Of a stretch of 64,000 nt of DNA, positions 1 to 4,788 are shown in pieces; position 1 is the stretch's first letter; each line of letters begins with the position of its first letter. Source of the DNA: Terriglobia bacterium. GTDB lineage: Bacteria; Acidobacteriota; Terriglobia; Terriglobales; Acidobacteriaceae. The notes under the pieces were generated by a model. The model searched no databases. It saw only the letters and a list, made by a program, of their open reading frames with translations, and was not told the origin of the DNA. The position numbers and the translations under genes are program-made. Where the stretch lies: assembly GCA_021324365.1 (NCBI GenBank), contig JAJPJE010000061.1, forward strand, positions 1 through 64,000. Reading direction: 5' to 3'.

Positions 1-79
1 CTCGGACGGACTTGAAGCTACAATCCCATAGTTTTGATCGGAGACCGATAAACACTTCAGGGGAAACTATGAGGAAACT

Positions 80-201
80 ATGAGGAAACTAATCACGATT
101 CTTCTGCTTTTGGTAGGGATCTGCGTTGCAGCAGATCAGCAAAAGACGCGAGTGTATTTGGAACCAATGAATGGTTTTGAGAATTATCTTGCCGCCGGAG
201 A
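80..201 (+). pseudogene. N-terminal half of a secreted protein gene split by inversion
   Basis: Reads an export signal (MRKLITILLLLVGICVAA) followed by RVYLEPMNGFENYLAA, then drifts into unrelated sequence after about position 200. The missing second half (ALQKKSVPVIIVTSKEK...) lies on the opposite strand at 653-357. Joining codon GCC at about 196-198 to GCT at 653-651 restores one frame (ENYLAA-ALQKKSVP). From memory, small exported Acidobacteria proteins have this order, but the function is unknown. The start used is the second ATG of a near-duplicated ATGAGGAAACT at 69-88. Confidence 0.6.
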
Positions 202-356
202 TGAAGCTCCGTCCTTAGCTCCCACTCGTTGCTTCGCACGAGTGCGGCACGCGCAGGAACAAAAAACCGTCCAGCTAAACCACAAGCTCTTGCCGGTGCC
301 CGGCCCTTTGCTCGTTTTGCAAAGGACCGGAACTCACGGCGCATTTTTTGGTCTGT

Positions 357-653
357 TTATTCTGTGGTTACACGGTGCTTTTCCAAATACTCTTTCAGAT
401 GTTTGGCGCACGCTTCTGCAGCGGTCTGCTGGCCATGGAGGGTATTCTTTTTGTCCACAGCGTATGCGAACACCTGTTCGTCATTGTGGACGTTCACCAC
501 GCGAATACTGGCTTGATCATCGCTGTGAATTTGTCCAAACATGATCATCTTCGCTACCCCGGCCTTTTTTTCCTCAGCGGTGCCGGTTATCACGAGGTCG
601 GCTTTCTCTTTGGACGTCACGATGATCACCGGAACGGATTTCTTCTGCAAAGC
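357..653 (-). pseudogene. C-terminal half of the inversion-split secreted protein gene
   Basis: Continuous minus-strand frame from ALQKKSVPVIIVTSKEK through LVITGTAEEKKAG, IHSDDQASIRVVNVHNDEQVFAYAV, NTLHGQQTAAEACAKHL, to a normal stop. It has no export signal or convincing start of its own; the only nearby start-like codon is TTG at 650. The composition looks like a real mixed alpha/beta domain rather than a chance frame. It is the expected continuation of the fragment at 80-201. It may still be expressed from a chance start, but it would no longer be exported. Confidence 0.6.
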
Positions 654-658
654 GCTTT

Positions 659-871
659 CGGCCAGCCTTCATTGACGCGCACAACTACAGTTTCTCCGCT
701 CGGGTAATAACGATAGCTGCTCCATTTCCACAACTCCGGGCTCGTGACCAGTCCTCGCAGCACCGGATTACGGTGCATATACCGAAGCTTCTCGATCCGC
801 TTCTTGTCAGTCCACACGTTGAAGTCGTAGAAACGGTGTTGCCAGAAATGCGCAAGGTCAGGTCCTAGCTC
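659..871 (-). pseudogene. C-terminal fragment of a REP-associated tyrosine transposase (RAYT)
   Basis: The stretch LAHFWQHRFYDFNVWT, then KRIEKLRYMHRNPVLRGLV, then WKWSSYRYYPSGE and VNEGWP is the signature C-terminal end of Y1/HUH transposases of the RAYT group (Transposase_17 family). The N-terminal two thirds, with the HUH metal site and catalytic tyrosine, are absent, so it cannot be active. Its last residues run directly into the displaced gene half at 653, so this is the outer breakpoint of the inversion. RAYTs normally act on REP palindromes; REP-like copies occur at 23588-23656 and 35584-35645. Confidence 0.7.
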
Positions 872-977
872 ACCACGCCACCCGGCAAGCATTTCTTGTC
901 TAGCTGAAAATCTACTAGTTACGACATCGCACGTGTCTCGTTTACTTTTCGTCTGAAATTCTCTCAGGAGATCAACC

Positions 978-1471
978 TTGAAAAATACGATAGCAGCCGC
1001 GTGCTTCCTATTGCTGGGATTCATGACCTTTCAACCGGCAGCGGATTCGCAGGACACTCCAAAGAGTAACGTGACCGCCGAGCAGGTAAACGACCAGTAC
1101 ATTCTGCTCAGGCGGCCGGACATTCGCTCAAAGCGCAAGCAACTCGTGGCAGTGAACTTGCTGATACTAAGGCAACCAAGTTCTGGCCCTTGTACGACAT
1201 GTAACCAAGGCTCAAAAATCTACGATGTCGTTATGCTTTGACCAAAGAGTACGCACAGAACCATACCAATCTGACTGATGCGCAAGCAGACAGCCTGATG
1301 AAGCGTTGAATTGCTACGCAGCAATCGAATCGCGACTCGACTGAAATGGATTCCGGAGTTTGAAAAAGTCATTTCCGCGAAAAGACAACGACATTTTTCC
1401 AGATAGACAACTGAACGGCAATGCTGGTCGATCTGCAGGTAACTTCACAGATCCCGCTGGTCGAGCAGTAA
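978..1471 (+). pseudogene. Decayed secreted-protein gene with several frameshifts
   Basis: Starts at TTG 978 after AGGAG at 966-970 and encodes a signal peptide (KNTIAAACFLLLGFMTF) then VTAEQVNDQYILLRRPDIRSKRKQ. The reading then jumps frame: ADTKATKFWPLYDM stops at 1203, LTKEYAQNHTNLTDAQADSLMKR stops at 1309, RLKWIPEFEKVISAK follows in another frame, and the end reads LVDLQVTSQIPLVEQ before TAA 1471. All pieces are collinear, so this is one small exported protein (about 155 residues, function unknown) with at least three indels. As I recall, the family is common in Acidobacteria. Confidence 0.65.
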
Positions 1472-1506
1472 AGGCCGTCGCTTAATCCGCCGGAGAGACG
1501 TTGGTG

Positions 1507-1770
1507 CTACAAATCCTGTTCAGTTACGTTGAGCTGAGCGTCCTTTGACAAATAGCTCTTGCGGCGGAACCAGTCTTCCATTGCCAATCGAAGCTTTTCG
1601 AGTGGCACATTTCGGCCGATTTCCATCTCGCCGTCAGCGATGGGAAGAGTGTCGTCGAAGATGGAGTCGTTGGTGAAATTTCGCATGGAGAAGCTATCGA
1701 GCCACTTCAATGGACAAGGATGCTTCTCGATACCTTCCGTAAATTCGACGCGGATTTTGCGGGCGAACAC
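1507..1770 (-). CDS. Hypothetical protein, possibly a remnant
   Basis: An 87-residue frame from GTG 1770 with charged composition and no transmembrane segment. I recognise no domain. It includes KIRVEFTEGIEKHPCPLKWLDSFSMRNF and GEMEIGRNVPLEKLRLAMEDWFRRK. It sits next to decayed genes and may be the end of a larger lost gene or an unrecognised small protein. No clear ribosome binding site precedes the GTG. Confidence 0.35.
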   Translation of the reverse strand: MFARKIRVEFTEGIEKHPCPLKWLDSFSMRNFTNDSIFDDTLPIADGEMEIGRNVPLEKLRLAMEDWFRRKSYLSKDAQLNVTEQDL

Positions 1771-1822
1771 GAAACCATTTCATCACAAATGACACGGAGG
1801 ACGCAGAAGAATTAAGGGACGG

Positions 1823-2185
1823 CTATCGTGCCGCGGCCAGCGCTTGCTGGTGCTCGTGCTCCACGGCGTCGAGGTGATCGAGCGCTTCTTTGACAGTGAG
1901 CGAATACATCTCGCGACCGCCATCTTCGCCTGATTCGATGGCCCACTTCAGGTAGTGACCGGCAATCTCAACGGCTAAAGGATCGCTGATCACTTTGCCT
2001 GTACGCTTGTTGTATTCAACCCAGGCAGGGTGGGGCAGCGCAATCCAGACCGGTCGGCCGTTGGCGAGAAACTTGATGTCAACCGCGTCGGCATGACGAG
2101 TGGCAATGGCGACGATGAGCGCCTGGTAAATGCAGTGGACCTCTTCTCCGGTCCAGCGGTCGTGAACGCGAAAGTCTCCGTACAT
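1823..2185 (-). CDS. Conserved hypothetical protein
   Basis: Encodes about 120 residues starting MYGDFRVHDRWTGEEVHCIYQALIVAIATRHADAVDIKF and ending in a charged helix (KEALDHLDAVEHEHQQALAA). No signal peptide or membrane segment, so a cytosolic protein. I placed the start at ATG 2185; the frame stays open to a TTG at 2227, which would add 14 residues. The protein-like composition and its position divergent from pgeF support a real gene. No known domain recognised. Confidence 0.6.
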   Translation of the reverse strand: MYGDFRVHDRWTGEEVHCIYQALIVAIATRHADAVDIKFLANGRPVWIALPHPAWVEYNKRTGKVISDPLAVEIAGHYLKWAIESGEDGGREMYSLTVKEALDHLDAVEHEHQQALAAAR

Positions 2186-2244
2186 AAGAGAATTAAGACT
2201 ATAACGGAGAGCGAGCAGATCACGCAAACGATTGCATGATCGCC

Positions 2245-2336
2245 GATTCAGAGTTTGTGCGATTGAGTCATTGAAGAAGCGACCGGGCTTTCTAGTGCCA
2301 CAATGACTCGATGGCTGAGTGACTCAATTCTGAATC
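2245..2336. repeat. Imperfect inverted-repeat element upstream of pgeF
   Basis: Outer arms GATTCAGA (2245-2252) and TCTGAATC (2329-2336) are exact inverses. Inner arms GAGTCATTG (2265-2273) and CAATGACTC (2301-2309) are exact inverses too. A further TGACTCAAT at 2320-2328 is the inverse of ATTGAGTCA at 2262-2270. The 92-bp element fills most of the gap between the divergent genes and could fold into a long hairpin. It may be a small MITE-like repeat or a two-sided operator. Confidence 0.5.
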
Positions 2337-2364
2337 AGGAAGGCAGCTTGCTAGAATCAAAGTT

Positions 2365-3270
2365 ATGGGTCGCGTCGCCGTCAAAACCAGATCCAACCGC
2401 AGGAAAACGGCTGCCGATGGCCTCACGGTTTTGAAAGCAGCGTCACTCACTGAACTGGAATGGGTGATACACGGGTTCAGCACGCGCACGGGCGGAGTTT
2501 CCAAAGCCTATGGCGGAAACAGCCTCAATCTCGGCGTAACCGAGCAGGACACAGCCGAGGCAGTTGAGCGCAATCGAGAAATCTTCTTAAAACGACTGGG
2601 CGCCGCAAATGGGCGTAAGCTGTGGCCGACCGCACCTATGCACCAGATTCACTCGGCTGTCATCCACCGCGTCGACGCTGTTGCGGAAAAGACCTTGCAG
2701 GGAGACGGACTGATTACCAATGTTTCCGGACTTCTACTGACAGTTCGCACCGCGGATTGCGTTCCAGTTCTGCTAGCGGATGGGAAGAAACGTGTCATCG
2801 GCGCATTCCACGCCGGCTGGCGAGGAACGCTGGCGCGAATCGTGGAGAAAGGCGTGGGCGAAATGCGGCGACAGTTTGGCAGCGACCCAGGGGATATGGT
2901 CGCAGCGATTGGGCCTTGCATTCACGCGTGCTGTTACGAGGTCAGCGACGATTTCCGCGAGAAATTCCGCACGCAGTTTGCATATGCGGACGATCTCTTC
3001 GAGGAGGTCTTCGATTCCAACTCCTTGCATTTGAAGTATCCGCTGCTCTTCCTGAATCAGAGGGCTCCGGGGCATGGGGACGCCGCCAGCAAATTGCACC
3101 TGAATCTGGTGGAAGCAAATCGTCGCCAGTTGCTGGACAGTGGCCTGGCGGAGAAGAACATTTGGATGTCGGAGCTTTGCACCTCGTGCCGAACTGATGT
3201 GCTCTTCTCGCATCGTGCAGAGTTCGGACAGACCGGGCGGATGCTGGCAGCGATCGGAATCAGAGGGTAA
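2365..3270 (+). CDS. pgeF: Peptidoglycan editing factor / YfiH-type purine nucleoside phosphorylase
   Basis: A 301-residue cytosolic protein of the DUF152/YfiH family (older label: multicopper polyphenol oxidase). Family members hydrolyse wrongly built UDP-MurNAc-L-serine or act on adenosine/inosine; which applies here cannot be seen. The metal-site residues are visible: His96 in MHQIHS, Cys132 in TADCVPV and His149 in FHAGWRG. IGPCIHACCYEV and ELCTSCRTDVLFSHRAEFGQTGRMLAAIG complete the pattern. The N-terminus is about 25 basic residues longer than usual; ATG 2365 lacks a good ribosome site, so a later start is possible. Stands alone, divergent from the gene at 1823-2185. Confidence 0.88.
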   Translation: MGRVAVKTRSNRRKTAADGLTVLKAASLTELEWVIHGFSTRTGGVSKAYGGNSLNLGVTEQDTAEAVERNREIFLKRLGAANGRKLWPTAPMHQIHSAVIHRVDAVAEKTLQGDGLITNVSGLLLTVRTADCVPVLLADGKKRVIGAFHAGWRGTLARIVEKGVGEMRRQFGSDPGDMVAAIGPCIHACCYEVSDDFREKFRTQFAYADDLFEEVFDSNSLHLKYPLLFLNQRAPGHGDAASKLHLNLVEANRRQLLDSGLAEKNIWMSELCTSCRTDVLFSHRAEFGQTGRMLAAIGIRG

Positions 3271-3662: not shown

Positions 3663-3852
3663 AACGCCTCGCTAGTAGATCGTCCGTCCACGGCGAACGA
3701 CCTAAGTCTCAAGTTTGCAAGTATTTATACAGCATAGCAGTGCTGCTGGACAAATACATTCTTGCTGTGCCCAAGGATCTGCCGCGGAAAATGACCAATT
3801 GGGGCGCAGATTGAAGCTGCACATGGCAGGAGTTTTTGTGACGTAGCAGGCA

Positions 3853-4788
3853 CTAGGCAGCTTGTGTCTCCTCTCCCGGGGCGGCGTGCCTGTTCGTTTG
3901 AGAAGCGACTGAAGGTCCTTGGCGGCATCAACGGTAACAGACATGGTGCTGCTGCCAATCTGGATGTCGCCCTGTTGTTGAAGACGCTCGAAAACTCTCC
4001 AATAAATGAACGAACTAGCCTTCCGTCTTTGCTTCGGATCGACCACGTAGCGCATGGTGAGGTCGAGATAGTTAGAGGTAACCTTCATGTAGACTTGGGG
4101 CTTCAAATCGGTCTCCGGCGCACCAGGAAATAGTGCCGCATGCGTTCAAGCTGCTGTTGAGCCCCTTCGAGAAACTCCTGAGTGTGTTGGCCGCCGACAC
4201 CGGACAGAATCTCGGTCGCGGCCTTCAGATTGCTCTCGTAAGTGATGGGAAGTTTCACCTCGTCCCAGATGTAATCGAAATCGCGGGTATAGTTCATCAC
4301 CGCAACGCCGAAGATGGTGGCGTTGGCAAATTGAATCATGCGGCCGCTGTACTGATCGCCGCCGATCCAGTTTCCAATCTCCATCATTTGTGTATAGAAA
4401 AAACCGACGCTGATTACGTCGCCAGACATTTCGCTAATCTGGATTCGGTCGCCGACGGTGTAGATTCGTCCAGCGAAAATCGCAATCCGCCCCGCAACGG
4501 AAAGCAATGGTTCGCGCAGAGCGACAGCAAGTCCGGCGCCAATCAGTCCAAGAAAGGTGCCTGTATGCTGAAGTTTGCGCGCCCAGAGGATGACACCGTA
4601 ATCACAAAGCCAACGAGGACGAACGTGTTCAGCGCCTGCCGCAGCCGGAACCGGTTCTGGTCACTCGTATGCAGCGCGTCAATGCTCTTGCCGCCGAGAG
4701 TGACGGAGAGCCAGGCAGCTACGAACGCAAAAATCGTTCCCAGGATTGCGATGTGGTACTGCGAGGTCCACAGCCACGAAATGTGCAT
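3853..4788 (-). pseudogene. mscS: Broken small-conductance mechanosensitive channel (MscS family)
   Basis: Three collinear pieces of an MscS channel lie in different frames. Residues from ATG 4788 give two membrane segments (YHIAILGTIFAFVAAWLSVTL; ALNTFVLVGFVIT). About 4590 the frame slips to WARKLQHTGTFLGLIGAGLAVALREPLLSVAGR, the pore helix, and then the beta domain (YTVGDRIQISEMSGDVISVGFF, NATIFGVAVMNYTRDFDYIWDEVKLPI). About 4115 it slips again to PETDLKPQVYMKVTSNYLDLTMRY. A third slip near the end probably restores a stop at 3853-3855. At least two single-base indels inactivate the gene unless they are assembly errors. Confidence 0.8.

Follow-up and report, generated by a model that had tools for sequence, protein, structure and literature searches.

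A segment of about 457 bp near the start of the 64,000-nucleotide stretch of Terriglobia bacterium DNA examined here (hereafter the window) appears to have been turned around in place, cutting two convergent genes at once. One of these, which we call gene A, has the look of a secreted-protein gene, and the other is the remnant of a RAYT transposase gene. Both are made continuous by one and the same flip of positions 197-653. We assign a probability of roughly 0.87 to this balanced inversion as the joint explanation of all the features below, inferences included, whereas the inversion taken by itself is a little more secure. The features on which the argument turns are as follows.

80-196, plus strand: N-terminal half of gene A, with the start codon, a start that resembles a signal peptide by eye, and codons 1-39 (ending in FENYLAA)
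196-197, no strand: left join, a CG dinucleotide common to both joins
198-218, plus strand: putative displaced RAYT end, the last six codons (EMKLRP) and the stop TAG, in the RAYT frame after the flip
221-255 (core 223-244), plus strand: REP-like palindrome with a GCGGCACGC tag, lying after the RAYT stop once flipped
300-330, minus strand: second hairpin, with arms at 300-311 and 319-330 that are 92% complementary, head-to-head with the first
357-653, minus strand: C-terminal half of gene A, codons 40-137 and the stop (ALQKKSVPVIIV..RVTTE)
653-654, no strand: right join, with the CG common to the left join
655-865, minus strand: RAYT remnant, the C-terminal region (..RFYDFNVW..LRYMHRNPV..VRVNEGWPK), with the HUH part missing

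As the window now reads, gene A exists as two halves of one gene on opposite strands, neither of them interrupted within. The plus-strand half (80-196) translates as MRKLITILLLLVGICVAADQQKTRVYLEPMNGFENYLAA, of which FENYLAA is encoded by positions 176-196, and the other half runs from 653 to 357 on the minus strand. When positions 197-653 are flipped in silico, the two fall into one frame of 137 codons plus a stop. An earlier reading of the window, made from the sequence only, had proposed that a local flip joins these halves in frame, and it had placed the C-terminal half precisely where we find it. The N-terminal half is likewise present on the plus strand from position 80, although it ends at 196 and not near 201. 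An 11-base tandem unit (GGAAACTATGA) occupies positions 61-94, reaching just over the gene A start codon.

An open frame alone is weak evidence for such a join, because many flips would produce one. We tried 1,225 flips, one end falling in 180-214 and the other in 635-669; gene A stayed open as far as its own stop in 364, and in 150 of those the RAYT frame also reached its MKLRP stop. The telling evidence is instead the gapless fit of the rejoined protein to its homologues. Residues 33-47, which span the join, align gaplessly in all 19 distinct homologous stretches, a count that excludes loci from the window itself, merges repeats of one stretch and leaves out L017, which gave no match at the threshold. 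The local inversion suggested by the sequence-only reading thus gains the support of homologues that run straight across the rejoined junction.

In a search of 100 genomes with this protein, 16 yielded a match at E <= 0.001, the genome of origin included (15 of the 99 relatives), and the distribution of gene A among relatives is patchy. A scan of named genomes returned two relatives, the better being a Candidatus Acidiferrales bacterium MAG. Its homologue (L022) is the best we have, with 67% identity over residues 25-131, and in the join region its sequence is FENYLAAALEKKDVP, opposite FENYLAAALQKKSVP in the rejoined gene. At codon positions 1, 2 and 3 the two genes differ 1, 0 and 12 times in the N-terminal half (15 codons) and 31, 19 and 59 times in the C-terminal half (92 codons), and this third-position bias in both halves suggests that constraint at the protein level persisted until recently. 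No second copy of gene A was found in its own genome, which is 95% complete (4.44 Mb in 125 contigs). Three relatives (G030, G050 and G048) each carry two tandem, diverged copies (loci L018, L019 and L020).

What the gene A protein might do is suggested only faintly by its matches. Searches of Pfam and NCBIfam returned no match over cut-off, and we rejected a type VII secretion protein, which is the top NCBIfam line yet scores 16.7 bits against a cut-off of 778. A structure model of the L022 homologue, built from an alignment of three, is of middling confidence (mean pLDDT 69.7) and has no PDB match at E <= 0.001. The top matches short of that threshold are TraT (0.0052) and the Neisseria protein 3bf2 (0.0063), followed at 0.07-0.14 by LptE, CsgE and a DUF4136 protein, with many tRNA synthetases in between. 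These fold matches of the model are a weak lead only.

The second witness to the inversion is the RAYT remnant, whose truncated end lies where the sequence-only reading had put it. The remnant corresponds to the final third of the RAYT profile (NF047646 positions 102-146, E 3.3e-9), and at 36.8 bits it is below the family cut-off of 80. Its upstream limit is uncertain, with strong matches stopping at about 850-865 and weaker ones reaching 913-973. The HUH motif H[VILMF]H[LVIF][LV] is absent from all frames of window positions 601-2200, and when the whole RAYT frames of relatives are compared with positions 1-3000, the matches start at residue 57 or later. As the window stands, the RAYT frame runs through VNEGWPK and then into the C-terminal half of gene A, where it continues as ALCRRNPFR to a stop. 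After the flip, the body on the minus strand regains the tail AEMKLRP and a stop, so that the frame runs ..VNEGWPKAEMKLRP to its end. The RAYT end is therefore cut by the same inversion as gene A, and its missing tail and stop are those at 198-218.

The tails of relatives bear on this assignment. The flipped tail NEGWPKAEMKLRP resembles NEWGPAELKIRTAA of L082, NEWGPAKLKIREQAA of L094 and NEWEVLKMKIRPPAA of L077, although RAYT tails are variable and many relatives end otherwise, for example in NVGWGEISFRDRVA. Against a RAYT profile built from 49 of 56 relatives (seven were excluded because the frame stayed open or stopped early or very late), the remnant scores 126.4 bits with the flipped tail, 123.7 with the present tail and 120.6 with none, the relatives having been gathered with a query that bore the flipped tail, which slightly biases the comparison in its favour. 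The window yields 39,279 control tails; in a sample of 20,000 of these, the score of the flipped tail is equalled or exceeded by 25 and that of the present tail by 3,796.

The sequence between the gene A halves had been described in the sequence-only reading as eroded. We set aside that description in favour of another: positions 198-356 are best read as the RAYT tail, a head-to-head pair of REP-like hairpins and a spacer to the gene A stop. Of 46 relatives, 28 carry a GNGGCACNC tag no more than about 120 nt from their RAYT stop (it is missing there in the other 18, and three further loci were too short to count), compared with none of 87 control windows taken further on. In the flipped window the tag lies behind the palindrome CACTCGTTGCTTCGCACGAGTG, 28 nt away when counted from the first nucleotide of the RAYT stop, whereas in the unflipped window no such tag is found near the RAYT stop. 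Stem length does not discriminate: in both orientations the perfect stems that follow the stop reach 7 at most. The palindrome core has four copies in the genome at three or fewer mismatches, the one in the window included, and a reversed control has zero. The second hairpin appears to face the other way; the GGGCACC in it looks REP-like by eye but fails the strict tag pattern. Single-strand folding of positions 198-360 beats shuffled sequence modestly (z -2.03, with 3 of 200 shuffles as good). RAYT genes are described as flanked by two inverted REPs (PMC2817692); the flipped RAYT remnant has its REP-like palindrome on the 3' side, after the stop.

The joins themselves are close to base-exact. 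Flips of 196-654, 197-653 and 198-652 give the identical sequence, and the two joins share CG only. No bases appear to have been lost or gained, since the three flips are equivalent and gene A keeps the length of its homologues over the join; the evidence is less firm for the RAYT remnant, tails varying in length. In agreement with the sequence-only reading, no long inverted repeats mark the ends: exact inverted matches in the 40 bases around the joins reach 7 nt at most (5.8 on average in shuffles), and the longest one lies away from the joins themselves. A direct 7-mer, CCGCTTT, which contains the CG, is present at both reconstructed ancestral ends, and at least 7 bases are shared by 7 of 903 random CG pairs. 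By our own reading, both ends also show C^CGC, which we take to be the recognition sequence of AciI, and a cut there would leave CG overhangs. A restriction-type cut would fit, but this observation is post hoc and has to be set against the same chance level, and we do not retain it. Both breakpoints fall within coding sequence, one about 25 bases from the first hairpin and the other about 320 from the second.

Taken together, these observations suggest a simple history. On the ancestral plus strand, gene A would have run through its 137 codons to a stop, followed by the head-to-head REP-like hairpins and then by the 3' end of the RAYT remnant on the minus strand. This order is deduced from the flip rather than seen in any relative; the gene A loci that were fetched, mostly with only about 1.5 kb of flank, contain no RAYT match. 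The genus of the window is not among the genomes listed in the searches for relatives, and 96 of the 398 in one survey fall outside those listed. The inversion would have parted gene A codons 1-39 from codons 40-137 without loss or gain of a base and, at its other end, the last six RAYT codons and stop from the RAYT body. The whole gene A protein would presumably no longer be made. Because both halves are still without stops and frameshifts, the event was probably fairly recent.

Two routes to such a rearrangement seem about equally plausible, each falling somewhat short of an even chance. Two double-strand breaks might have been joined by Ku/LigD end joining with the CG as overlap, or a replication fork stalled by the hairpins might have switched template twice. 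The genome has two Ku matches and one match to the LigD polymerase domain, all over cut-off, so end joining is available to this bacterium; whether it acted in this event is a separate matter.

Among the alternatives, the likeliest, improbable as we consider it, is an artefact in which the end of the contig was assembled or amplified with a piece reversed, both genes being joined in the cells. The window begins at base 1 of contig C74, which places the left join only about 196 bases from the end, and by our reading a further two genes no more than 5 kb away appear frameshifted, which could point to poor sequence near the end. However, a graph misassembly requires an inverted repeat roughly as long as the k-mer, whereas the longest near the joins (within 40 bases) measures 7 nt. 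A lossless inversion has two joins and both can be seen here, while a foldback chimera would normally leave a single one. Gene A lines up with its homologues through the join region without insertions or deletions. An origin of the halves from two tandem paralogues, each partly deleted, would draw on the tandem gene A copies of the three relatives named above, but we give it the smallest chance of all. Halves that meet at adjacent residues with neither gap nor overlap would be an unexpected outcome of two independent deletions, as would a RAYT remnant that the same flip mends, and no other copy of gene A is found in the 95% complete genome.

The remaining alternatives concern the cause or the fate of an inversion rather than its existence. 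The sequence-only reading had leaned towards a transposase-linked rearrangement, for which we found no positive evidence. A RAYT protein acting in trans might have cut near the REPs, after which the segment was rejoined in reverse; the two head-to-head hairpins inside the flipped segment and two RAYT matches over the family cut-off in the genome would allow it. Against this, the breakpoints lie in coding sequence and off the hairpins, RAYTs are thought to cut single strands, and the RAYT at this locus is a fragment that lacks the HUH motif and is itself cut, so that we regard this cause as very improbable. Slimmer still is the chance of a reversible switch by which a site-specific recombinase turns gene A on and off, a possibility that the sequence-only reading had also judged the less likely. 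The halves are both intact, and the self-complementary CG within CCGCTTT at both ancestral ends is something that a recombinase with a CG core could join either way, yet the 7-mers are direct rather than inverted and their sharing is subject to the chance level given above. Invertons are described as having flanking inverted repeats of 10-40 nt (PMC11892184), which are absent here, and we rejected a switch of that design. A switch would, in addition, turn on and off a RAYT remnant that lacks the HUH part, which makes little sense. A very weak test, the search of viral_contigs for exact left-join patterns in either orientation, gave 0 and 0 matches. To a live two-gene switch that dispenses with inverted repeats, in which an enzyme would cut CCGCTTT and rejoin it either way so that gene A and the RAYT tail are alternately joined and broken, we accord an even smaller probability. 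We therefore return to the simple balanced inversion: the case looks ordinary in kind, and more like a rearrangement of fairly recent date than like a genetic switch.

Several other features of the region and genome were observed along the way. Positions 978-1480 on the plus strand hold a second frame resembling that of a secreted protein (MKNTIAAACFLLLGFMTFQPAADSQ..), which by eye continues through frameshifts and a stop and is likely a pseudogene; its first 87 residues have matches in none of 40 relatives. A gene for an MscS-type channel at 3702-4788 on the minus strand, with a PF00924 match in 4103-4507, is apparently split over three frames (4788-4543, 4507-4103 and 4106-3702), either as a pseudogene or through indel errors in sequence close to the end of the contig. 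On contigs C34 and C3 of genome G000, RAYT matches are likewise found in roughly the first 620 bases, and their nearness to these ends suggests that RAYT genes or REP repeats may break the assembly.

Even an ordinary event of this kind has practical value. This small bacterial inversion is a clean example, nearly base-exact and free of repeats, with two cut genes as independent witnesses; events of this type can easily be mistaken for erosion or for a pair of small, unrelated genes. It also illustrates how the tail of a RAYT remnant can be lost with no transposition taking place. Were such inversions to cluster at convergent junctions of gene, REP and RAYT, it would be appropriate to ask whether REP hairpins provoke them. 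Among the papers listed by literature searches, no title or opening of an abstract described a bacterial inversion of this sort, which is not to say that the literature has none.

The closest comparison is with microinversions, which resemble the present case in being lossless, in spanning a few hundred bases, in showing hardly any homology where the ends were joined and in inactivating a gene. Unlike in those, two convergent genes have here been cut at once, and both serve as independent witnesses to the breakpoints. Intragenic invertons, the phase-variable DNA inversions reportedly described by Chanin et al. in Nature in 2024 (cited in PMC11868660), likewise have an inversion end inside coding sequence, but here there are no flanking inverted repeats, the other end lies in a transposase remnant and nothing points to the presence of both orientations. 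Finally, the arrangement recalls RAYT genes with their REPs or BIMEs in its C-terminal RAYT region, in the REP-like palindrome that follows the stop once flipped and in its two head-to-head hairpins, and departs from them in that the HUH part is missing, the remnant falls well under its family cut-off and the tail is detached from the body.
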